A DNA stretch of 64,000 nt from IMG/VR virus record IMGVR_UViG_3300020183_000023, positions 42,654-106,653 of that record, one strand, 5' to 3'. The translations under genes were made by a program, and so were the position numbers. The notes under the pieces are model-generated. The model had not been told where the DNA came from. It saw only the letters and a list, made by a program, of their open reading frames with translations, and searched no databases. This document shows, one piece after another, positions 1-42,597 of the stretch. Source of the stretch: a virus. Numbering within the stretch: position 1 is the stretch's first letter; every line of letters begins with the position of its first letter.

Positions 1-643
1 CTTTACACAGGCAACTTTCTACTTGACCAATTGGCGCAGACCATTTTTTAGATAACTCCCATCCAAACTCCTCCCATTTTGTTAATATTTTTCGGTCATA
101 CTTTTGGTCAATTCCATATAAATATCTGAGTCCAAAAATTGGACCGGTGTTTTTATTTGGGTCTGAATTTTCAATTCCTAATCCATGAATACGCAAATTA
201 TTGTATCCGAGTGTTTGATCTAAAACTTCGCAGATTTTATAACAAGCCCAATCACCAAAGTACGGAATCGTTTTAAAAAGCTCTCTTCCGCTATCAAAAT
301 TATGTTCTTTTGTAACTAGCAGCGGTTTAATTTCCAACCATCTCTGATAGGCTTTTTGAAAGTTTTCTAAACGTCGTACTTGCGGTGTTCGCCCTCGTTC
401 CATACCAAATTTAGTAATTTTATTAAAACAGACAGTTTCTGTACTATCAGAAACCATCCGCATGAAATGAATCATGCTTTCTATAGAATAGTAGTAGACA
501 TACATGAAAACGGCAGTCTCTGGATCAAACTTTTCATGTTGAATAATTTTTTGTAAAAACGGATAAACAGGGTCAACATCTTTGGTTTGAATCAATGCAA
601 GACTGGCTTTTTCAAAATCACCATAATTAAATAGCTGATGCAT
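1..643 (-). CDS. AGPT-Pplase-like amino acid:DNA transferase (partial)
   Basis: This reading frame starts at an ATG at 643 and stays open for 214 codons to the window edge, so the C-terminus is missing. It overlaps the end of the upstream flavoenzyme gene by 17 bases, which suggests co-translation. The protein is helical and carries IPYFGDWACYK, a later GPIFGLRYLYG stretch and a terminal E-x-x-LCK pattern. I associate these with the alpha-glutamyl/putrescinyl-thymine pyrophosphorylase family (DNA-glycosylase-like fold). That family replaces the pyrophosphate on activated 5-hydroxymethyl-dU in DNA with an amino acid or polyamine. The neighbour being an FAD oxidoreductase fits this pathway. The family call is by remembered motif pattern only; a helical protein of unknown function is the alternative. 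Confidence 0.5.
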   Translation of the reverse strand, partial: MHQLFNYGDFEKASLALIQTKDVDPVYPFLQKIIQHEKFDPETAVFMYVYYYSIESMIHFMRMVSDSTETVCFNKITKFGMERGRTPQVRRLENFQKAYQRWLEIKPLLVTKEHNFDSGRELFKTIPYFGDWACYKICEVLDQTLGYNNLRIHGLGIENSDPNKNTGPIFGLRYLYGIDQKYDRKILTKWEEFGWELSKKWSAPIGQVESCLCK

Positions 644-1535
644 AGACTTGCGCCTGAATTGCGTCTGCAATTTCTTTTATATAGGAAGGTGCGTGTCGTA
701 ATCCGTTTGCAGATTTAGGCGTGATGTACATTTGATTACTTTCTTGTATAAAGGCATATGGAAATTCGGAAACATATGCGGGACGCCAACCAACTGTAGG
801 AGATCCCTCTGGTTGAATATCTACTTGTCCGTCTGTAACTTTTTTAATATGAGAAATAATATTTTCCACTTTACTGCCGATTTCTAAATCTTTTTGATTT
901 TTTTGATAAATAAAATGTGTTCCAAGGTAATAATCATCAGTCATTGGTCGAGGATACAAATATGCATTAATAAAACGACCTTCTTTAGCATTCAGACACA
1001 TGCGCGGGTATTTATCAAACACTTCTCCAGAAACTTTGCATGGAACAGACCATCCCCATCTATAATCAGTGGGACGATGTTTATGGAATCCATGAGCATG
1101 GACAATTAAAGCATCTGATTGGCAATAACCAGGTCCAAATAATGAAAAGAAAAAATTTCTAGAAAAATTAACAAATTTTTGTACATTTACATGCATAGAA
1201 TGTTTATTAAGAATTTTAATATTGCCAATACATTCTTCAACTTTTAGATCTTTTGAATTATTTCCATGCGGGATACTTTTTTGTGTAAATCCATATGGTA
1301 CAGATTCTGCAAATAATTGTATTGGCATAGTTTCATCGGGGGCAAATTTTTTTATCCAAAGATTATAATTTAAATTATCAAATGAATCTCCAGATGGATA
1401 AATGCAACCAGTGCTTGCCTTCCAAGCTGATGGATGATCTTCGTCATGCCATGTAAAATCAATTTTTCTTTCTGTTAGTTCCCATGCAAGCAGGCTGCCA
1501 ATTAATCCAAAGCCTTTAATATGTACTTTAAGCAT
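627..1535 (-). CDS. FAD-dependent oxidoreductase, DAO/MnmC-like
   Basis: The N-terminus has a Rossmann dinucleotide-binding motif G8-x-G10-x-x-G13 (VHIKGFGLIGSLLAWEL), with an acidic D31 near the end of the second strand. The C-terminal part has GWRPAYVSEFPYAF and GLRHAPSYIKEIAD, which resemble the closing FAD-contact segment of D-amino-acid-oxidase-fold enzymes. At 302 residues it is short for that fold. Flavin enzymes of this class oxidise C-N bonds of amino acids; MnmC does so on a modified tRNA uridine, releasing glyoxylate. Because the next gene is AGPT-like, I infer that this enzyme trims an amino acid attached to thymine, as described for flavin-dependent lyases of phage thymidine hypermodification. 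The substrate is inference; the FAD fold is fairly secure. Confidence 0.62.
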   Translation of the reverse strand: MLKVHIKGFGLIGSLLAWELTERKIDFTWHDEDHPSAWKASTGCIYPSGDSFDNLNYNLWIKKFAPDETMPIQLFAESVPYGFTQKSIPHGNNSKDLKVEECIGNIKILNKHSMHVNVQKFVNFSRNFFFSLFGPGYCQSDALIVHAHGFHKHRPTDYRWGWSVPCKVSGEVFDKYPRMCLNAKEGRFINAYLYPRPMTDDYYLGTHFIYQKNQKDLEIGSKVENIISHIKKVTDGQVDIQPEGSPTVGWRPAYVSEFPYAFIQESNQMYITPKSANGLRHAPSYIKEIADAIQAQVYASAI

Positions 1536-2029: not shown

Positions 2030-3118
2030 TCATCCCTCGTAAATATCGGCGTTCATTGCAATTCCCATGTTTTTAGAAATAAAAACTTCTTGTTTAATCT
2101 TTGCGTAAAGATTTTCATCCATTTTTACTAAATCAACAAATTTTGACATGTTTCCGGCCTTAATACCAAGTTCTTCTGGACCAAAGTAAATAGTATTGCC
2201 AGTTTCTTTTTTATGAAGAACGCCAAGATTAAGCGCAAGTTCTACCAGTTCTTCATCTTGATTAGCTAATTCGCCAGATTCCATATTGAGCCAAAACTCT
2301 GCAGCTTTGCCTTCAACAGTCAATCGTGTTTTATTAACTTTGCAACGTACTTTAGAACCAACAGCAATATTCTTACCTTGGCTATCTTTTGATTCAGATA
2401 CAAGCTTGTCCTTCATGCCGGTAGCTTTTTCAAGGAAAATAATTGTAGAACAGAGATGTTTAAGTCTTTGTCCACCCGTAAGTACCCATGGATAATATTT
2501 AGCCATTCGCGTATCAAGGTTTGCCATTGCATGGTTAGTTAAAATAACTAATACTTCACATTCATTAGCAATACGATTTAGCACGTTTAGAGCAGGATTA
2601 ATGCTCTTAGAAATACCGCCATAACCATTTGCAGCACCACTAACATCGCCCTCTTCCATTGCACCTTGCTCGCCTAATGCAGTTAATGCCTTAACCGAAT
2701 CAAGAATAATTGCACAACAATCTTTGTTCTTTTTAATTTCTTCTTCCATTTTGGCTAGTGGTTTAATTGCGCCTTCAAATGTATTGGATTGAATAACAAC
2801 AAGACGATCTAGATCAACACCCAAACTGCCCGCACGTTCAGGATTAAATGCATACTCTGTGTCGATAAAAATACCGTACTTATTTGGATTAGCTTTTTGT
2901 TCTTGAGCAAGTAGTTTTAGAGCCATTAGGCTTTTACCAGAACCAGGCGAACCCCAAAGCATAACTAGTTCTCCAACTGGAATACCGCCGCCAACTGCCC
3001 AATCAAAAGATACAGAGCCTGTTGTACGAATATGTTTTTCTTTATTTTTAAATTCTTTTGCTACGGCAACTCGTTCCATTTTCAACATTGACGACAAATA
3101 ACTTGGAAGCTTAGACAT
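2030..3118 (-). CDS. uvsX: RecA/UvsX-like recombinase
   Basis: A 362-residue ATP-dependent strand-exchange protein that would form filaments on ssDNA during recombination-dependent replication and repair. Walker A is GSPGSGKS (residues 56-63). It is followed by the RecA-type IDTEYAFNPERAGSLGVD segment, whose acidic residue corresponds to the catalytic Glu region. Walker B is CAIILDSVKAL, and a RecA L2-like segment runs through NHAMANLDTRMAKYYPW. The length is close to T4 UvsX and bacterial RecA. It lies downstream of the SSB and a possible mediator gene and upstream of the DNA-modification genes, all on the minus strand. The distinction between RecA and UvsX types is not resolved by eye. Confidence 0.9.
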   Translation of the reverse strand: MSKLPSYLSSMLKMERVAVAKEFKNKEKHIRTTGSVSFDWAVGGGIPVGELVMLWGSPGSGKSLMALKLLAQEQKANPNKYGIFIDTEYAFNPERAGSLGVDLDRLVVIQSNTFEGAIKPLAKMEEEIKKNKDCCAIILDSVKALTALGEQGAMEEGDVSGAANGYGGISKSINPALNVLNRIANECEVLVILTNHAMANLDTRMAKYYPWVLTGGQRLKHLCSTIIFLEKATGMKDKLVSESKDSQGKNIAVGSKVRCKVNKTRLTVEGKAAEFWLNMESGELANQDEELVELALNLGVLHKKETGNTIYFGPEELGIKAGNMSKFVDLVKMDENLYAKIKQEVFISKNMGIAMNADIYEG

Positions 3119-11514: not shown

Positions 11515-12182
11515 TTGTAATGATTACTGATGATATTTACAATAAAAGTATTTATCCTCAATGTGATTTTAGTATTATCGAATTGCCTATTGAGGCAAAA
11601 GACGCTAAAAAGATGTATCAGCAATTATTCAAAACTCAAAAAAACAATCATATTTCGTTACAATTTAGTCGTTTGCCTAAAAAACTTAGGCTAAAGGCTA
11701 TGAGTAACGCTTTTATTGGTGACGAAGTCGGATTTAAATTTTATGATTATGTGACTATTGTTTCGCAACAGCCCTGCAGACAACCGCCTAATCATCTTTC
11801 TCCTCTTGGCGAAACGGTAATTTTATTTACTAAAAACGAAGAACCAAATGTAAAAACTACTAATTGGTTTAATACAGAAGTGGGAGATTGTACAAATGTT
11901 TGGGATGTAACACTGCAACCAAAAGAAGGGGTCGGGCAAACAGTTTCTAAAAAATTTGCATGGGAGATTGGATATCTTTTAGCAAATTTAGCTAGTCCAT
12001 TAATTTGTAGAAAATTTCTTGTTTTAGGTCTTCCTGAATTGTCAATGGCAAAATTTGCATTAAATTCAAATTTGCAAATGTATGCGATTACATCAGATGA
12101 ATTTACCGCAAATAAAGTTATTAAAGAATACGATAAATCGCTAAAAGACGAGGTTAGTAATAAAACATGGCAAAAGAAATAA
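11484..12182 (+). CDS. Degenerate beta-type DNA methyltransferase-like protein
   Basis: This 232-residue protein follows the order of small N4/N6 amino-methyltransferases, but the key motifs are changed. The DPPY position reads IIELPI. A segment FKFYDYVTIVSQQPCRQPP leading into ETVILFTK matches the family's conserved K-x-N-P and E-x-x-x-x-F-x-K region. NVWDV follows, and the DPFxGSGTT region reads LVLGLPELSMAKFAL. It therefore looks like a methyltransferase fold without catalytic or SAM-binding residues. It overlaps the primase-like gene by 31 bases and groEL by 16. It may bind DNA or another protein. The similarity is by eye, so moderate confidence. Confidence 0.4.
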   Translation: MQVTSADGRIVVMITDDIYNKSIYPQCDFSIIELPIEAKDAKKMYQQLFKTQKNNHISLQFSRLPKKLRLKAMSNAFIGDEVGFKFYDYVTIVSQQPCRQPPNHLSPLGETVILFTKNEEPNVKTTNWFNTEVGDCTNVWDVTLQPKEGVGQTVSKKFAWEIGYLLANLASPLICRKFLVLGLPELSMAKFALNSNLQMYAITSDEFTANKVIKEYDKSLKDEVSNKTWQKK

Positions 12183-13774
12183 AGTACGGACAAGAGGCCA
12201 GAGCAAAGGCTGTAAAGGCTTTAGAAGAAATTGCTGCAATTGTAGGAAGTACTCTTGGGCCAGGCGGAAAAACTGTTCTGTTAAGTCGGCGTAATTCTGC
12301 TGATGAAATTTCTGTTAGTCACACAAAAGATGGTTTTAATGTTTTGAATGGCCTTCGATATACCGACCCTGTTTTTGATGCTGTCCATAAACTTTGTTTA
12401 CAGGCCAGTGCAAATTCTGTGGTCTCTGCTGGAGATGGTACCACATCAACCATTGTTATGGCCGCTGCGTTTGCAAATGCATTGGTCAATAGTGGAAATA
12501 ATCCGCAGGCAGCGGCCAGAAAATTTCGTAAAGAAATACAAAGAGCTATTGAGGCAATTAAGCAAGAGTGTATTTCTGGTGAAGAGGCTATTTATAAAGT
12601 TGCTCTTACTAGTAGTAACGGAGATGAAGAACTTACCTCCTATGTACTAGAAGCAATTCAACAAAGCTCTGCTTACGGAACTGTAATTGTTGAAAAAAAT
12701 CCAATGTCTAGAGAACCATTTAAAATTGATAAAGAATATGGATACCAAGCGGGTACTGGATATAGTTATTACCTACCATTTGCTCAAAGCATTCGACCAA
12801 ATTTAGCAAATAACGCTGAATTTACTATGAAACAATGTTTTGTAATGCCATATAATGGCGATTTAATGATGATGTCACAAGTAAAGCCAATGCTAGAAAC
12901 ATTAGCTCGTAATCATCAGCAATGGAATTTATTGATTGTATGCCATCAAGTAGCAGAAGATTTAGCTGCAAACTTAGCGTATTTTAATCGCCAGAATCCA
13001 CAAGTAAAAGTGTTTGTGGTTCGCACAACACCATCGGCAGAACTAAATGGGCAGGTTCAGCAATTAAATGACATTGCCGCATATACTGGCGCTAAAGTTA
13101 TGGATGGTGGTAGTTTGACGCACATTACTATAGAAGACTTTGGCGATTGCAAATCTGCACGTATTGGGTCGCACAAAACATTTTTACTTGGCCGATCAGA
13201 TCGAAATTGGATTATTGAACGTGCAGAACAAAATGAAGAATCTGCAAGATTAGCACCAAGTCAGATGGATAGAGATATCATTAATTCACGAAACGCATCA
13301 TTAACAGGTGGCTGCGTGAAGCTAATTATTGGCGGGACGCTATTCAGCGACTTGCAAGAACGTGCCGACAGAGCTGATGATGCGATTAAAGCTTCACAGG
13401 CATGTGGGCGGAGTGGTGCTTTGCCAGGATGTGGTGCTTCATATATGCGGGCAGGACAACTTGGCGAAGTTTCAGAAGAAGTTTTAAAAGCTCTTTCAAG
13501 TATTCATTCGGTAATCATGGAAAATTTCGGTGAGACGCCTATGAAGCAATTTAAAAAATCAGAAACTTATTTTATTACAGAAAATAATATCAAAAAAGTG
13601 AGCAATTTTGTTGATTATGGTGTTGCAGATAGTTTTGAGACAATTAAATCTGTGATTACAAATGCTTTTGAATTAGGATTATTAGTGACTAATCTTGGTG
13701 GATATAGCCTTGAAGCTGATTTAGACCAAATGGAGCAGGCCGCTAGAGCAAAAGAAATTTTAAGAGGCGTATGA
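12167..13774 (+). CDS. groL: GroEL-like chaperonin
   Basis: A 535-residue group I chaperonin subunit. TLGPGGKTVLL (29-39) and GDGTTSTIV (89-97) are the ATP-binding motifs. The catalytic and magnesium Asp equivalents are present in RADDAIKAS (about 402-410) and GVADSFETIK (about 485-494). The usual GVVAGGG hinge reads GALPGCG. There is no C-terminal GGM tail. Phage chaperonins of this kind (for example from phages EL and AR9) fold virion proteins and can work without a GroES; no co-chaperonin gene was recognised here. The gene overlaps the methylase-like gene by 16 bases, implying co-expression. Confidence 0.92.
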   Translation: MAKEIKYGQEARAKAVKALEEIAAIVGSTLGPGGKTVLLSRRNSADEISVSHTKDGFNVLNGLRYTDPVFDAVHKLCLQASANSVVSAGDGTTSTIVMAAAFANALVNSGNNPQAAARKFRKEIQRAIEAIKQECISGEEAIYKVALTSSNGDEELTSYVLEAIQQSSAYGTVIVEKNPMSREPFKIDKEYGYQAGTGYSYYLPFAQSIRPNLANNAEFTMKQCFVMPYNGDLMMMSQVKPMLETLARNHQQWNLLIVCHQVAEDLAANLAYFNRQNPQVKVFVVRTTPSAELNGQVQQLNDIAAYTGAKVMDGGSLTHITIEDFGDCKSARIGSHKTFLLGRSDRNWIIERAEQNEESARLAPSQMDRDIINSRNASLTGGCVKLIIGGTLFSDLQERADRADDAIKASQACGRSGALPGCGASYMRAGQLGEVSEEVLKALSSIHSVIMENFGETPMKQFKKSETYFITENNIKKVSNFVDYGVADSFETIKSVITNAFELGLLVTNLGGYSLEADLDQMEQAARAKEILRGV

Positions 13775-35449: not shown

Positions 35450-37471
35450 TTATTCAGATTTTGAAGATTCGTTTAGAAGTTCTTTAATAGATTTTCCAGA
35501 TTTATTTTTAGCATTTAATGCAGTTTTATGCTTTTCATCTGCGTGCTTCATTTTTTGTTCATGTTGCTCTTTTTTCATTTGCATTTCTTGCGCGTGTTTT
35601 TCTTGCATTTGTTTTAATTGTTCTTCGCTCATATTTTGTTCATTTTCAGCCTGAGCTTGCTGTTGTTCTTGCCCATCTTGTTGTTGCTGTTCGCCTTGTT
35701 GTGCTTGTTGTTGCTGTGCTTGCATTTGTTGTTCAGCTTGTTGCATTTGCATTTCAAGCTGTTCGGTTTGCATCTTCATTTGCTCTGCCTGCATTTCTGG
35801 AATTTTACCGCGTTGTTTTTGGTAAGCATCGTTTAGTGCTGGATCAATGAAAAAATCTAATGCTGGATCTTTTAGAGCTTTTTTATCATGAAAAAAATGA
35901 TATCTTAGTTCTGACATTTTCATGTATTTAGCAACTGATGCATGGAATAGTGGAGAAGTAGGGACGTCTCCGCCGAATGGAAAGATATCTAAGCGTTCGC
36001 TATCGGACCATATTTTACCAAACGTACCAGATGTTTGTAATTCTTCTTTGTAAATAGCTAAATCTGCTTCTTTTGTGTTTTGGCCAAGACCAATAGGCTC
36101 TAATTTTAAAATATCTTTTGCTTGTTCAAAAGAATCACCAACTAAATCATTAAGCAGGTCAAATAGCGCTTCCATTAATTGACGAAGACCGCGTTCTTCT
36201 CCTTGAACAATCTGTTCTTGTTTTCCTGTATCGCCCATTGTTGGTTTTGCAGAATCTAACGCACCAAATCCAATTTCTTGTGGCGAAATCTGAAATGCGC
36301 CACAAACAATCATTAAAACACGTTGATATAAATTATTAAACTCTAAATCTTTTGCTGTAATGTTTAATGGCACAAATTCAACATCAATAGGGCCAGCAAC
36401 AATTGGAATTGTTGCTGAATTATCATTTCTGGCGACATAATTACTAAAAAGTTTCCTAAAAGCTTCTGCTTGCTCTGGACTTACAACACCAGGCTCTTGT
36501 GTTTTTAGATTAATAATGCCTTTTGTCGCTAACCCCTTAGTAAAAGAGTTTTGCAAATATTGTTGGGCATAAAAATGCATTGAAACTGCATAAAACGCCT
36601 TTTCAATCGGCGCCATTGGATAACCATCTAAATTTTCATGAGCTTGTTTTTGCAAATACGTAACAATTAGATCATTTTCTGTAAAAAATGCGACATTTTT
36701 TCCGTCAATTCTTTGCACATATGCAATTGGCCTGCGGCCTTCTTCAATATTTCTATAATCTTTTAGATCCGCTTGTGACTGATCTGATATATCTTTATCA
36801 TTAACCGATAAAGTTACTTCTGCTTGATCTAAAACGCGATAAATACTTTCAACTGGAACTGGTCTAAATAAAACCGGAACACCTTCTTTGCTTCTAATGA
36901 TTTGTGTAGCGCAGCGCCCATATACTAATAAATTTCTTGATTGAGCACCTAAAAAATCTGCAAGATTACAATATTTAAATGTTGTATCAGAACCTTGAAA
37001 TACGTGGTCTAGGATTTTTTTATTAGTTGTTCCACAATTTAAAACAAATTTAACAATCAAATTAGAAAGCTCTGTTCTAAATTTGACTTCTTCTAATTTT
37101 TCTTCTTCGGAAATAGAAGAATCCATTTGCGCTGGAATAACTTCTCGAAGAACAAATCCACGGTCATATTTATTTGCAGATTTACGACCAAACGCCATCG
37201 ATTGATTAGCGCGAGTGTCAATAATTAAAGAAATAATTGAGTCATAATATGCAAGTTCACGCAATTCTCTATCGGACATCCGCCCTTTTTTCTCAAAAAG
37301 GCTGTTTGAGCTGGCATTTCTAGATTCAAGGCTAAAAACAGCCTTGCTTTGTTCAATTTTATCTTTAATCAAATCGTTACTTTCTAACGGTTTGACAGAT
37401 TTGTTCAAATCTTCAACAGAAAATGAGACTTGCCCTTGTCTACTTTTTTTTAAAAAATCAAAAAGCCCCAT
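35450..37471 (-). CDS. Portal protein
   Basis: A 673-residue protein with portal features: an N-terminal DRELRELAYYDSIISLIIDTR helix region, the NLLVYGRCATQIIR wing segment and a PVPVESIYRV strand, then a long helical stem region. The C-terminal 110 residues are a low-complexity Gln/Met/Glu coiled coil ending in a Lys-rich segment, seen in some large-phage portals. The portal forms the dodecameric DNA gate at the capsid vertex. The position, two genes after the large terminase, supports the call. Confidence 0.75.
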   Translation of the reverse strand: MGLFDFLKKSRQGQVSFSVEDLNKSVKPLESNDLIKDKIEQSKAVFSLESRNASSNSLFEKKGRMSDRELRELAYYDSIISLIIDTRANQSMAFGRKSANKYDRGFVLREVIPAQMDSSISEEEKLEEVKFRTELSNLIVKFVLNCGTTNKKILDHVFQGSDTTFKYCNLADFLGAQSRNLLVYGRCATQIIRSKEGVPVLFRPVPVESIYRVLDQAEVTLSVNDKDISDQSQADLKDYRNIEEGRRPIAYVQRIDGKNVAFFTENDLIVTYLQKQAHENLDGYPMAPIEKAFYAVSMHFYAQQYLQNSFTKGLATKGIINLKTQEPGVVSPEQAEAFRKLFSNYVARNDNSATIPIVAGPIDVEFVPLNITAKDLEFNNLYQRVLMIVCGAFQISPQEIGFGALDSAKPTMGDTGKQEQIVQGEERGLRQLMEALFDLLNDLVGDSFEQAKDILKLEPIGLGQNTKEADLAIYKEELQTSGTFGKIWSDSERLDIFPFGGDVPTSPLFHASVAKYMKMSELRYHFFHDKKALKDPALDFFIDPALNDAYQKQRGKIPEMQAEQMKMQTEQLEMQMQQAEQQMQAQQQQAQQGEQQQQDGQEQQQAQAENEQNMSEEQLKQMQEKHAQEMQMKKEQHEQKMKHADEKHKTALNAKNKSGKSIKELLNESSKSE

Positions 37472-37481
37472 TGTTCACCTA

Positions 37482-38468
37482 TTATTCTAATGTGCAGCTT
37501 TGAACAGAAACGGTGGCTGGTTCTGAATTTTTATTTGTTGCAGAAATATTAACTAAGTTAGTAGTTGTTGCAAACAATGCTGAACCAGCGTTTCCATTAA
37601 TAACGGGAAATTCATTATTTGAGCCATCAAAAGATAAATAAATTGTGCTATCAGATTCGATAGTGACAAAATTAATTAATCTGGAATAAAATAAAAACGG
37701 AGTATTAATACCAGCTAAAACGGTCTCGGGAATAATTTGTGGATTATAAAAAATAACATCCCTATCTGTCACATCCATCACTTGAAAATCTTTGCATTTA
37801 TTTTCTGAATTAAATGCAGAAGATTGAGCAACTCTCAATTTATCGCCAATTTGTACACCATCGGCAGAAAAAAACCTAATCACAGAATCAAACAATGATC
37901 CTAAAACAATTCCATTTTCATCGCCAATCATTCCATTATCACGAACAATAACAGAATTTGAAGTCTTAGAAAGAACAACATACCCTCTTCCGATTGAAGA
38001 AGGATTAAGAGGCGAAGAAAGGCCGGAATCGGACTCTTGTAGATACATAATATCGCCTGGTAATACTGCGCTTAAATTAACTCCACCGCCATTCAGAGTG
38101 ATTTGTGAAGCAGATGGGCTCATTCTAGAGGCGGAGTATGTTGTAAGCGCAGAATGAGCAATAGAACGATTGATTCTAAAATTTGGTGAAGACCCAACTC
38201 CAGTCCAACGTAATCTCACAAGATCTGTACCCGATTTAGGCAAAGAAATAGAAAATTCGGAGGCGGCTAAAGATGAACTAATTGTTCGCGCTGTTGATTG
38301 CAATAAAACTGTTTCGCCAGGTAAAACGCTGATAGTTTCACTTATTGGATTAGTGACAGAAAGACCAGTGACTGATGAAAGAAAATCAAAATTTCTTTGC
38401 TTAGGACTTTGCGATGGATTTACATCACTGTAACATAGTCTTGATATATAAAAATTCAAAAGAGCCAT
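37482..38468 (-). CDS. Putative virion protein between TerL and portal
   Basis: A 328-residue beta-rich protein with Ser/Asn/Gly-rich loops and no enzyme motif. It lies directly between the terminase and portal genes with gaps of about ten bases on each side. A head, neck or decoration protein is likely from context; the family is not recognised. Confidence 0.55.
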   Translation of the reverse strand: MALLNFYISRLCYSDVNPSQSPKQRNFDFLSSVTGLSVTNPISETISVLPGETVLLQSTARTISSSLAASEFSISLPKSGTDLVRLRWTGVGSSPNFRINRSIAHSALTTYSASRMSPSASQITLNGGGVNLSAVLPGDIMYLQESDSGLSSPLNPSSIGRGYVVLSKTSNSVIVRDNGMIGDENGIVLGSLFDSVIRFFSADGVQIGDKLRVAQSSAFNSENKCKDFQVMDVTDRDVIFYNPQIIPETVLAGINTPFLFYSRLINFVTIESDSTIYLSFDGSNNEFPVINGNAGSALFATTTNLVNISATNKNSEPATVSVQSCTLE

Positions 38469-38476
38469 AATTGCCC

Positions 38477-40396
38477 CTAAAATAAAATAGTCGCGCTACC
38501 CGATTTTAACATTTTTTCTGAGTCTTCTTCGTTCTTTTTCTTAATATCTAAGTTATATTCATTTGCATAATGAACCCGTAATGCTTCTTGCATCCCTTCT
38601 ACTGTAGTAAAATTTAGCTTTTTTGTAAAATCAAAAGCATCATTTTGATTTGCTTGTATAACACTGGCGTTTGCAGTAATAAAGGGATCTATTGCGTATC
38701 TGAGCGCGTCTGGACCATGAGTAAAATCATCATCTGCAAATTTAGAATAATCATATCCCATCAATCCTCTTGCATATGTCCAATTTTCCATACATTTTAT
38801 TAAAAATGTATTTTTCATATCGTCTAAAATCATAAAATTAGCTTGTTGTCGCATAGCATTCCATAATTTTGAACGAATCCATGCAACACCAGTGTCAATT
38901 GTTAATGGTTTTTCGCCTCTGGCTGGCATATTCATGCTGCCAGCAACAGATGTTGATGATTTATCGGCAGTGTCTGGACATAATAAATCAAAACCGTATT
39001 TTAAATATATGTTTTCTTTTATAAAGGAAAGCCAGTCTGGATTGGCATATCCTGTTGAATTTTCTGTGTGTAAAACTATTAATTTATCATCAGATTTTTT
39101 ATATGCGACTAAAACAGCAACTGCTGGATCAATGAATCCAAAATCTACTCCACAATGCAATCGCCATCCGTTTTGTCGTAATTCTTTAATCAATAATTCT
39201 TTTGTTGGTTCAAATAAATTTCCGTATTTGTCTGTTGGAAATACATTAAATGCAAAATTCCATACGTCAGAAATAGGTTTTACATGAACGCTTCTATTAA
39301 ATTTATTAAAAACAACACCAGATGACTCTGGCCTTAAGTTCAAGATCTGTGCATTTATTTTATCTGGGTCACTCGCATTTAATAAAGTGTTTTTAACAAA
39401 CCCTATATCACGTAACATTTTTGATTTTGATTGTTGTTTAATTGATTTTGTGCGACAGATTGAAAAAACTGGACAAGTTTTGCAACCCTCATACGCTAAA
39501 ATGCCAGAATATGCCATTTTATATTCGGCATTCAATGCTTGATATGCCGGATTTCCAATAACGTCCAGATTTTCAGAATGAACAAATAACATATCTCTAG
39601 GATGTTCTGGTTTATGTCTTTCTGGAGGACATGGTTGCATCCAATCAACAATTGACCATTTATGCAAACGAATGCCCGAGTTAGGTAAATCAGATTCATC
39701 TATTTTTTGTTGAATTGGCCCAGATCCAGATTTTCTGGAAGATAAATAAATAAAAATTGGCGGTTTTCCTGATCTATCTGGGTCGGCAATAAACGTTGCC
39801 TCAGATAAAATGTCTTTATCGATTAAGTCAAGCTCATCAAAAATCAAACAACTTGCGCGTTGGGCGTTTGCAGACTTTTTAGTAGAAACAACAACTTGTA
39901 ATTTACAATAGCCAACTGGTCGAGATGGCGCGGATGGCAACCTATTAAGTTCTTTTATTCGTTTACTGTCTGTTTTAGCAAATGAAGATATAATTGGCAG
40001 AGCTAAGTATTTATCTAAATATCTAATCGCAGCTAACGATTGATCTAGAATAGCTGCCATATGTACAATATCGCGGGCAAAATGCACCATTAACAAAAAT
40101 TCAATAATAGATGCTGCTAATGTTTTTGCAGAGTTTCGGCTTGCTGCTACAACAAATGTAGTCCTGTTTGGATCGCCGTCTTTTGCTGCGGAATAAACAT
40201 CCCAAATAAAATCTATTGGATTGGAATTACTATTTTCATCTACCGTGCAATCCGGTAAATCAATATCTAGAAAAGTCTTAATCCATTGTTTAAGTTGTGG
40301 TTTTGTGTCACAAACTGCAAAAAATTGTTCTTCATACAGCTCATTAAGAGCTGCATTTAATTGATTTTGATTTGTTATCTCTGTTTTTTTAACCAT
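38477..40396 (-). CDS. terL: Terminase large subunit
   Basis: A 639-residue DNA-packaging motor. The ATPase has Walker A SRNSAKT (about 86-92) and Walker B CLIFDELD (183-190). The C-terminal RNase H-like nuclease has CGVDFGFIDPA (first catalytic Asp near 418) and a later DDFTHGPDALRYAI segment with the last acidic residue. Between them is a C-x-x-C-x5-C-type cluster (about 305-314), a possible metal site. It pumps and cuts DNA at the portal. It is preceded in the same operon by the dioxygenase, AGPT-like and HTH genes. Confidence 0.92.
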   Translation of the reverse strand: MVKKTEITNQNQLNAALNELYEEQFFAVCDTKPQLKQWIKTFLDIDLPDCTVDENSNSNPIDFIWDVYSAAKDGDPNRTTFVVAASRNSAKTLAASIIEFLLMVHFARDIVHMAAILDQSLAAIRYLDKYLALPIISSFAKTDSKRIKELNRLPSAPSRPVGYCKLQVVVSTKKSANAQRASCLIFDELDLIDKDILSEATFIADPDRSGKPPIFIYLSSRKSGSGPIQQKIDESDLPNSGIRLHKWSIVDWMQPCPPERHKPEHPRDMLFVHSENLDVIGNPAYQALNAEYKMAYSGILAYEGCKTCPVFSICRTKSIKQQSKSKMLRDIGFVKNTLLNASDPDKINAQILNLRPESSGVVFNKFNRSVHVKPISDVWNFAFNVFPTDKYGNLFEPTKELLIKELRQNGWRLHCGVDFGFIDPAVAVLVAYKKSDDKLIVLHTENSTGYANPDWLSFIKENIYLKYGFDLLCPDTADKSSTSVAGSMNMPARGEKPLTIDTGVAWIRSKLWNAMRQQANFMILDDMKNTFLIKCMENWTYARGLMGYDYSKFADDDFTHGPDALRYAIDPFITANASVIQANQNDAFDFTKKLNFTTVEGMQEALRVHYANEYNLDIKKKNEEDSEKMLKSGSATILF

Positions 40397-40398
40397 AA

Positions 40399-41052
40399 TT
40401 AATCTTTAAATGGGTGAAACCATGTAACAATACAAAATTTATTACCATTAATAACTTTGTGTGCGATATGTTCATATGCATAGTTTGATGGAAATAATAA
40501 TATTGAATTTTTTTTTGGTTTAATTTTTAAATCAAACTTTGTGAATTCTAATTCACCGCCTTGGTAATCATCATTTAAATACATTATACAAGAAACTTCT
40601 CTAGATTGTGTTAATCCACCGGCATCTGTATGCTTATGGTATACACCGTTCTCTTTATATCTCAAAACATGGTAGCCTTCATCATTTTTGATGAAAATAT
40701 CGTGATCATTTGAATAATCTAAAATACTTTTTTTAAAAAATAAAAAGATTAATTTGTCAAATTCTGACATAAAATCATTATTTTTTAAATGACTAGAAAC
40801 AAAAAAGGTATCACAAATTCTTAATCCGTTATTATACTGATTTTTTTGTATTGTAGCTGGCTGCCACATTTCTTCTGAAATTTTTGATATAAAATCAAAA
40901 AAAATACAATTAAATTCATCTGGAAATATATATTGTGTGATGCATGGTCCAATAATATTTTTTTCAAATTCAAATTCCGTAATATTTTCTATTCCTGCCT
41001 TTTCCTTCAAGGAGGCTGCAGTATTTTCTAAATTCACAAGCAATTCCTTCAA
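40399..41052 (-). CDS. 2-oxoglutarate/Fe(II) dioxygenase
   Basis: A 217-residue oxygenase with the double-stranded beta-helix signature. HKHTDAG supplies the His and Asp ligands (H141, D143), CIMYLNDDYQGGELEF is the typical strand after it, and LFPSNYAYEH supplies the distal His (H195) with the 2OG-binding basic residue in GNKFCIVTW. The domain resembles prolyl-4-hydroxylase-like enzymes (P4Hc). Phage enzymes of this type hydroxylate proteins or, in other subfamilies, bases. It overlaps the AGPT-like gene by 83 bases and ends three bases before terL. The substrate is unknown; the context suggests DNA modification or a virion protein. Confidence 0.8.
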   Translation of the reverse strand: MKELLVNLENTAASLKEKAGIENITEFEFEKNIIGPCITQYIFPDEFNCIFFDFISKISEEMWQPATIQKNQYNNGLRICDTFFVSSHLKNNDFMSEFDKLIFLFFKKSILDYSNDHDIFIKNDEGYHVLRYKENGVYHKHTDAGGLTQSREVSCIMYLNDDYQGGELEFTKFDLKIKPKKNSILLFPSNYAYEHIAHKVINGNKFCIVTWFHPFKD

Positions 41053-41893
41053 TATTACAGGTAGTTAATAAAATATTTTTACCGTTCATTTGTAAGTAAG
41101 GGAAAGATTCTGTTGGTTGGTGTTTCATCAAAGTATAGGCGACGTCTTCAGGCTTTGCTTTTTTGTTTAAAATTTTACAAGTTGGCGCTGCTCCTCGCCC
41201 CATTTCTAAATACTTGAATTCATCAATATATTCTGGAAATTGATATCCAAAATCCATCATAATCTCGGTCATATGGAATGGATTTTTAAATTTTAAAATT
41301 GGATGAATGCTATTAGTTAAGTATTGAATACTATGTTTTTTATCAGACATCAGCAATTGATAAATTGGTTCAACTAATTCTGGCAGTTTTTCATATAAAA
41401 ATGCTTCTCGATTTTCTGCGCCAATAATAGAAAGACCTGCTTGCGGGAAAAGATATGCAGTATTGAATTTTGGCCCTTCTATTTTATTGAATTTTTCACG
41501 TGAAAGTTTGTTTTCTTCTTTATTTAAAGAAATATTACCGGTAATTTCAAGAGTTTTAGGTAAATTAATATACCTAGCAAACATAATATTTAATAAAGTT
41601 AATTTTTTATCGTGAAGACACGATTGAAGCCAGTTGTGTATCCACAGTGTTGTTTTATCTAATTCTCTATAACAGTTTGTAAAATAATTTCTATTCAAAA
41701 TAGGATCTTCTGTCCACGGTCTTGGTTGCCCGTTATCTTTTAAATGAAAAATTTTCATTCGTTCAATTGCAAAATCCCAATATCTCTGTTCAATAATAGA
41801 ATCTATAGCAACTTCATTCCCCTGCATCCAACCAAAATTTTGGTATTCAGAAAAATGAATATAAGAATTTAATGCTTTGATAATAGAACTCAT
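40970..41893 (-). CDS. AGPT-Pplase / 5-hmdU kinase helical-domain-like protein
   Basis: A 307-residue helical protein. An early segment reads YWDFAIERMKIF, then RPWTEDPIL (58-66) and NYFTNCYRELDKTTLWI (69-85). Near the C-terminus comes a GRGAAP segment and CEFRKY. I recognise this as the pattern shared by AGPT pyrophosphorylases and the helical domain of 5-hmdU DNA kinases, both of the phage thymine-hypermodification pathway. No P-loop kinase domain is present, so a transferase or DNA-binding role is more likely than a kinase. It starts four bases inside the preceding gene's stop and overlaps the 2OG dioxygenase. The family call is by eye. Confidence 0.58.
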   Translation of the reverse strand: MSSIIKALNSYIHFSEYQNFGWMQGNEVAIDSIIEQRYWDFAIERMKIFHLKDNGQPRPWTEDPILNRNYFTNCYRELDKTTLWIHNWLQSCLHDKKLTLLNIMFARYINLPKTLEITGNISLNKEENKLSREKFNKIEGPKFNTAYLFPQAGLSIIGAENREAFLYEKLPELVEPIYQLLMSDKKHSIQYLTNSIHPILKFKNPFHMTEIMMDFGYQFPEYIDEFKYLEMGRGAAPTCKILNKKAKPEDVAYTLMKHQPTESFPYLQMNGKNILLTTCNIEGIACEFRKYCSLLEGKGRNRKYYGI

Positions 41894-42597
41894 CTCGTTT
41901 TAACCTTTTCTAACAATTCTAAAAGTTCTAATCTGTCGTGTTCTGATTTTTCTTCAATTAACGTCGGCTCTATTACGCTGGATTCAATAGTTTCAACCCT
42001 ATTTTTAGCCGCATTATTTAGGTTTGCAACGTTAACATTAACAACTGTACCACTTGCTGACTTGCCTTCGGCTTCTTTAGTTTGAAGAGATTGAAGCATA
42101 TCTAATAAAGTCATAAAATCACGATAATTTTTCGGAATTAATGGACAATTTTTAGCTTGAGTTGGATCTTTTATAACTTCTGCTAATTGTTGTTTATATA
42201 AAGCGGCAGTTGCTACAATTGCGTCTGTAACTAAATCAATAGCGGCTGCATCTGCGCGAGTGACTTTTTCACCTGCACGAACAGAGGTAACAAGTTTTTT
42301 TCGTTCATGCCATTTATAATAAATGCCTGTGTATAACAAAATTCCCAATGGAATATTAAGTTTATTGGCAATTTCTTCCCAGCTAGCTCCCATGTAATAA
42401 AAATAAAACGCCGACTGCTCTACTTGTGACGGCAACCTGCTTCCAATTTTAACGGCCGTAGTTTTTGCTAGTTGAAATTCTTCCGCAGTCATATCAATTG
42501 GCTGATCACCAAAACAATCTAAAGGCTCTTCACGTTTTATAAACGAAGATTCTGAATAATTTGGAGTAATATTGCTGTTTTTATTATTCTTTTTCAT
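41890..42597 (-). CDS. HTH protein, possible terminase small subunit
   Basis: A 235-residue protein with a helix-turn-helix at about 65-90 (YFYYMGASWEEIANKLNIP), followed by a basic segment, a helical domain and an acidic tail. Small terminase subunits have this plan: N-terminal HTH for DNA recognition, then an oligomerisation helix. It is the first gene of the operon that ends with the large terminase and portal. Two presumed modification genes lie between the two terminase candidates, so the pairing is less certain. Confidence 0.5.
   Translation of the reverse strand: MKKNNKNSNITPNYSESSFIKREEPLDCFGDQPIDMTAEEFQLAKTTAVKIGSRLPSQVEQSAFYFYYMGASWEEIANKLNIPLGILLYTGIYYKWHERKKLVTSVRAGEKVTRADAAAIDLVTDAIVATAALYKQQLAEVIKDPTQAKNCPLIPKNYRDFMTLLDMLQSLQTKEAEGKSASGTVVNVNVANLNNAAKNRVETIESSVIEPTLIEEKSEHDRLELLELLEKVKTR

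Follow-up and report, generated by a model that had tools for sequence, protein, structure and literature searches.

A phage DNA-hypermodification system with a separate family of flavoenzymes and a possible cytosine substrate

The phage studied here, a large and uncultured bacterial virus, carries a DNA-hypermodification system, as indicated by the homology of its transferase, flavoenzyme, and aGPT-Pplase1 and by the co-occurrence of these proteins in the cassettes of other phages. The system as such belongs to a known kind; cytosine as the modified base and this family of flavoenzymes as the trimming enzyme may be new. We assign a probability of about 0.5 to the reading that an aGPT-Pplase/DNA-kinase-type post-replicative cassette acts here on 5-hydroxymethylcytosine (5-hmC). 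The more specific proposal, that a route known only for 5-hydroxymethyluracil yields an amino-acid-derived cytosine, for example 5-aminomethylcytosine, by means of a flavoenzyme family distinct from gp47 of phage PaMx11, is tentative and falls slightly short of even odds. If true, hypermodification of phage DNA with amino acids would extend beyond thymine, and an uncharacterized flavoenzyme family, annotated in several actinophage isolates as hypothetical protein or oxidoreductase, would gain a testable function.

The window, that is, the whole stretch of 64,000 nucleotides analyzed, comprises bases 42654–106653 of a 106,653-bp virus contig. A second, 169-kb contig (G001) is 99.7–100% identical to the window's contig in the compared stretches and 66 kb longer. 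Two contigs derive from sister phages, G002 (L020) and G003 (L019), the latter being a fragment. Because the Pfam scores of the transferase and the flavoenzyme lie below the cut-offs, HMMs were built from the cassette proteins of other phages (SN1, PaMx11, the IMG/VR contigs L021 and L023, Tonitrus, and MossRose), with the present phage excluded. The search covered 706 stop-to-stop frames from both contigs, together with 706 shuffled controls; the searched contig pieces share overlaps of 1–3 kb, so that a few of the 706 frames are counted twice. With the HMMs for ADDT, flavoenzyme, and aGPT-Pplase1, the expected ORF ranked first among the 706 frames, the next frame had an E-value of at least 0.25, and the shuffled controls remained at noise. 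The relevant genes at the edge of the window and directly beyond it are:

Window 1-643, minus strand: amino acid:DNA transferase of the aGPT-Pplase2/ADDT family, first 214 of 284 amino acids (HMM, invariant columns, tblastn)
Window 627-1535, minus strand: DAO-fold FAD enzyme of 302 amino acids, candidate oxidase/lyase trimming an amino-acid adduct (tblastn, HMM, AF2 model)
L002:17099-17737, minus strand: P-loop kinase candidate, outside the window and downstream of the transferase (HMM, fold match)
L002:16590-17126, minus strand: cytidine-deaminase-like protein (Pfam 4.7e-6)

An edge-truncated AGPT-like transferase whose gene overlaps that of a DAO-fold flavoenzyme was at the core of the original prediction, and both proteins were recovered at the top of the 706 frames, the transferase with an E-value of 3.1e-12 (1.6e-5 without the actinophage members of the HMM) and the flavoenzyme with 7e-54. 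The transferase ORF is cut by the window boundary, not by the contig end, and encodes 284 amino acids in the contig (L002:18442-19296, minus strand). The predicted motifs FGDWACYK and GPIFGL are present, but E-x-x-LCK is not final as had been assumed: since the ORF continues beyond the window edge, this motif is internal (residues 209–214). Against Pfam ADDT (PF18724), the transferase reaches an E-value of 0.002 and 18.4 bits, below the gathering threshold of 26.2. An alignment with SN1 aGPT-Pplase2 and the actinophage homologues contains 27 invariant columns, the invariants of the ADDT family are retained, including the GxWxxxK and VExxLC motifs, and tblastn connects the protein to Tonitrus aGPT-Pplase2 (4e-6). 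Judged by these sequence comparisons, the transferase is a divergent relative of aGPT-Pplase2/ADDT and not a Pfam-threshold member.

The flavoenzyme ORF, which starts with ATG, shares 17 bp with the transferase ORF. Its FAD-binding GxGxxG motif reads GFGLIGS, and its match to Pfam DAO (E = 0.11) is below the cut-off. A tblastn search of 50,697 phage records revealed eight relatives, which are confined to phages of Gordonia and to the Rhodococcus phage Tonitrus. A kinase gene adjoins the relative in all eight, and ADDT lies alongside in both loci that were opened (Tonitrus and MossRose). By pattern scan, no relatives were found in bacterial genomes. The AF2 model, calculated from a six-sequence alignment, has a pLDDT of 72, with one of five models above 40. 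Its matches in the PDB include D-amino-acid oxidase (DAAO, 3e-11), glycine oxidase (7e-9), and, by Foldseek, 8z79, the 5-N-alpha-glycinylthymidine FAD-dependent lyase gp47 of PaMx11 (E = 2.6e-8, TM 0.59/0.62). At the level of sequence, only the Rossmann segment aligns with gp47 (BLAST E = 0.2, hhalign probability 5%). The flavoenzyme is by this measure not a gp47 orthologue but a separate family, and from its model it may work like gp47. This likeness, which is one of fold and only weakly of sequence, counts against our best explanation, as does the small alignment behind the model.

An actinophage cassette bears on this point. ParB, TET, ADDT, and kinase of Phelemich are 44–65% identical to their Gordonia/Tonitrus counterparts, and the FAD gene in the slot of the flavoenzyme is a relative of PaMx11 gp47 (E = 2.4e-6). 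Unrelated FAD-enzyme families thus occupy one slot (L049:2545-3333 versus L010:3054-3926) of cassettes that are otherwise homologous between Phelemich and MossRose/Tonitrus. Since the two families interchange in this slot, we argue that they perform related jobs.

On the minus strand, the gene order is RecA-like protein (2030-3118), a 158-aa ORF, flavoenzyme, ADDT, ORFs of 113 and 125 aa, P-loop kinase, and cytidine-deaminase-like protein, and neighboring ORFs overlap or almost abut. The order from flavoenzyme to deaminase is kept in both sister contigs at 63–91% identity (flavoenzyme 68–69%, ADDT 75%, kinase 89–90%), with the kinase and the 113-aa ORF as the most conserved members. The cassette-kinase HMM ranks the P-loop protein best of all frames, at an E-value of only 0.0022, followed by other P-loop proteins at 0.07–0.1. 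Its AF2 model (pLDDT 65) matches the 5-hmdU DNA kinase of phiW-14 (E = 2.9e-3, probability 1.00) and also the kinase of Klebsiella phage KpS110; BLAST gave no match among phages, including the SN1 kinase. The protein is likely a cassette-type DNA kinase, with a weak sequence match. The search of the genome for 5-hmdU genes that had been suggested earlier led to a kinase candidate outside the window but not to a dUMP-type hydroxymethylase. A second P-loop kinase (L012:16776-17330, minus strand) was rejected as a T4-type dNMP kinase, as it had no PDB match at E 0.1.

Three further genes within the window had been proposed as partners of the pair:

Window 40970-41893, minus strand: aGPT-Pplase1/HMUDK_hel family protein (Pfam PF18723 1.6e-24, tblastn, HMM)
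Window 40399-41052, minus strand: 2OG-Fe(II) oxygenase, accessory at most (2OG-FeII_Oxy_3 1.8e-17)
Window 57358: PLP enzyme, fold-type I aminotransferase/alliinase-like (Alliinase_C 9e-33)

The first is indeed a second AGPT-like protein. It exceeds the gathering threshold of Pfam HMUDK_hel (87.2 bits versus 25), so that the Pfam comparison proposed earlier succeeds for this protein but not for the pair, which stays below the ADDT and DAO cut-offs. The clade-1 aGPT-Pplase1 HMM matches it at 5.8e-19, and tblastn connects it to 126 phage records, among which M6/YuA-like and ViI-like phages are frequent.

The oxygenase and the PLP enzyme exist as predicted, but neither appears to be a core part of the system. 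The oxygenase scores below the Tet_JBP cut-off (5e-4, 19.7 bits versus 34.9), and an HMM of the Tonitrus/MossRose TET enzymes detects nothing above noise in the frames of this phage, this oxygenase included. In L031 and L032, the gene immediately after HMUDK_hel encodes a relative with 49–53% identity. This position holds no relative in L030, and no match was found in G002 (including the position directly downstream of the HMUDK_hel gene) or in the fragment G003. Since the oxygenase is not detectably related to the cassette TETs and is missing from its place in G002, it was rejected as the source of the hydroxymethyl base. The PLP enzyme was rejected as well, since it shows no BLAST similarity to its counterpart in the SN1/M6 cassette and is encoded far away; a 55% relative occurs in G002, and none was found in the fragment G003. 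Both enzymes are dispensable for the scheme proposed below, which needs neither. Outside the window, G001 encodes a second 2OG-Fe(II) oxygenase (L011:9618-10211, plus strand; 2OG-FeII_Oxy_5 5.5e-12).

Within window positions 35450-42597, the HMUDK_hel and oxygenase genes are located between putative terminase subunit genes, with a portal gene adjacent. The small (41890-42597) and large (38477-40396) subunits are without significant Pfam match and were assigned by eye. A terminase gene likewise follows the modification cassette at a short distance in Tonitrus, MossRose, and Phelemich.

Thymine had been named as the modified base, an assignment that the hydroxymethylase gene does not favor. No TS-family gene was found in the window's own 106,653-bp contig, and the longer contig contains a single one:

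L013:13162-13869 (G001 149162-149869), plus strand: TS-family hydroxymethylase, apparently of dCMP type, sole TS-family gene in G001 (169 kb)

The TS-family cassette HMM ranks this protein first among the 706 frames (4.6e-9), and in the PDB it best matches T4 dCMP hydroxymethylase and CMP hydroxymethylase. The TS-family proteins of G001 and G003 carry Asp at the site of E. coli TS Asn177. In a tree, they group with T4 gp42 and with the corresponding protein of an Acinetobacter phage (UFB 96, SH-aLRT 94), a phage that also encodes glucosyltransferases. Asn occupies this site in the five cassette-type uracil hydroxymethylases of SN1, PaMx11, L021, L022, and L023 and in the SPO1-like enzyme of SH-Ab 15599. 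The exchange Asn177Asp converts TS from dUMP to dCMP, and Asp at this position marks cytosine-modified metagenome contigs (PMC8670742). Because several other phage TS-family proteins carry Asp, the residue points to a dCMP substrate and not necessarily to the pathway proposed here; it is also found in an Agathobaculum phage record annotated, by annotation only, as deoxyuridylate hydroxymethyltransferase. With Asp-177 and the grouping with gp42, the G001 protein looks built for cytosine; the base assignment of the system, drawn from one residue and a tree placement, is doubtful. A further point against cytosine is the location of the hydroxymethylase gene ∼110 kb away from the cassette. A C5-cytosine methyltransferase was found neither in G001–G003 nor in Tonitrus or MossRose.

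Comparison with known cassettes places these genes in context. In PaMx11, the cassette consists of gp46 (ADDT), gp47 (FAD lyase NGTO), gp48 (acetyltransferase), gp49 (kinase), gp50 (aGPT-Pplase1), and gp51 (hydroxymethylase). The present phage likewise has ADDT beside a DAO-fold FAD enzyme and encodes a candidate kinase, aGPT-Pplase1, and a TS-family hydroxymethylase in one genome. In contrast to PaMx11, its hydroxymethylase has Asp instead of Asn, its flavoenzyme belongs to a separate sequence family, its operon lacks a recognized acetyltransferase, and aGPT-Pplase1 and hydroxymethylase are encoded elsewhere in the genome. In the IMG/VR contigs L021–L023, the ADDT gene is followed by those of the flavoenzyme, the kinase, and aGPT-Pplase1 and finally by that of a uracil-type hydroxymethylase; two of the three contigs have an Nmad5-like gene ahead of the latter, and in L022 a short extra gene separates ADDT and flavoenzyme. 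This is the PaMx11 arrangement with the present flavoenzyme family replacing gp47. The predicted base-modification system is thereby borne out, the pair being matched in other phages within full cassettes. The M6/SN1 cassette (hydroxymethylase, Nmad5, aGPT-Pplase1, kinase, rSAM, PLP, aGPT-Pplase2; PMC9476957) shares with this phage both aGPT-Pplases and a P-loop kinase (a candidate here), whereas here no rSAM was seen and the PLP enzyme is BLAST-unrelated, and the M6/SN1 hydroxymethylase is of the uracil type. Tonitrus carries a five-gene thymidine hypermodification system comprising a ParB-like protein, a TET-like enzyme, aGPT-Pplase2, a kinase, and a “hypothetical protein” (PMC11955845), which by its position is a member of the present flavoenzyme family. 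Tonitrus and MossRose resemble this phage in having this family beside ADDT and kinase, but they possess a TET-like enzyme and no TS-family gene, whereas no TET relative was detected here. With the T4 5-hmC pathway, the phage has in common the gp42-like TS-family protein with its Asp. T4 glucosylates 5-hmC; to our knowledge, it uses neither a DNA kinase nor an amino-acid transferase.

Family membership of the transferase, flavoenzyme, aGPT-Pplase1, and TS-family protein follows from the sequence and model matches above, as does the joint occurrence of the parts; the following scheme, in which the kinase, all reactions, the amino acid as well as the modified base are inferred, is our proposal. 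The dCMP-type hydroxymethylase would produce 5-hm-dCMP, which would enter DNA after phosphorylation. There, the 5-hydroxymethyl group would be phosphorylated by the P-loop kinase whose gene lies downstream of the transferase, the phosphate would be replaced by an amino acid through the ADDT-like transferase, and the flavoenzyme would oxidatively cleave the C–N bond of the adduct. With glycine as the amino acid, this would most likely yield 5-aminomethylcytosine plus glyoxylate. The aGPT-Pplase1-like protein could have an assisting role. In M6, ViI, and phiW-14, a kinase likewise phosphorylates hydroxymethyl bases in DNA before substitution takes place, and where representatives of the transferase, kinase, and aGPT-Pplase1 families have been studied, they use 5-hmdU (PMC6449724).

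This preference of the studied relatives is one argument for a distinctly less probable but serious alternative, in which the same cassette modifies thymine, with kinase, ADDT, and flavoenzyme acting on 5-hmdU as in PaMx11 and 5-aminomethyl-dU or similar as the final product. Lee et al. (2018/2022) reportedly described such family members as acting on 5-hmdU, and neither a DNA kinase nor an amino-acid transferase acting on 5-hmC is known to us. The 5-hmdU could be supplied by the Asp-type TS enzyme after all, by an unsampled gene, or by a 2OG oxygenase oxidizing thymine in DNA. The phage has two such oxygenases, and, as the genome may be incomplete, an unseen uracil-type hydroxymethyl source is possible. 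Moreover, both a TS-family gene and a C5-cytosine methyltransferase are missing from the actinophages whose cassettes combine TET with this flavoenzyme family, which suggests thymine oxidation there. However, the only TS-family gene of the 169-kb contig appears to be of the dCMP type, as is that of the sister phage, and the oxygenase at 40399 is neither detectably related to the actinophage TETs nor present at its place in G002.

The cytosine reading is also weakened by a Glyco_transf_9 match in G001, as 5-hmC could be glycosylated instead. Two parallel systems might then exist, with plain or glycosylated 5-hmC on the one hand and a cassette acting on little of another base, or at specific sites, on the other. 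We consider this improbable: the Glyco_transf_9 match and a Mom homologue do represent more than one modification-type gene, but a distinct source for a second hydroxymethyl base was not detected, and a GT9 family match is more typical of surface sugars. Recruitment of flavoenzyme and transferase away from DNA modification, for example into small-molecule or tRNA chemistry, is very improbable, for although DAO-fold enzymes are versatile and the ADDT Pfam score is under the curated cut-off, the ADDT invariants are kept, a kinase candidate and aGPT-Pplase1 occur in the same genome, and every flavoenzyme relative found in other lineages sits in a hypermodification-type cassette.

The hydroxymethylase, kinase, transferase, and flavoenzyme of the favored 5-hmC scheme are each of a small, expressible size, and the flavoenzyme family is also present in Gordonia and Rhodococcus phage isolates that can be propagated for analysis of their DNA.

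The homologue of Mom of phage Mu is encoded outside the window (L011:15262-15906, plus strand; G001 115262-115906; Pfam Mom 3e-32, PDB 8bv8 2.5e-7), and because of its presence, adenine modification by this phage may occur, too. Within the window, a Cpn60/TCP-1-like chaperonin gene is located at 12167-13774 (Pfam 2.6e-26), and a scan of positions 2030-64000 revealed IMPDH/GMP reductase, the large and small subunits of ribonucleotide reductase, and a pyrimidine-dimer glycosylase.
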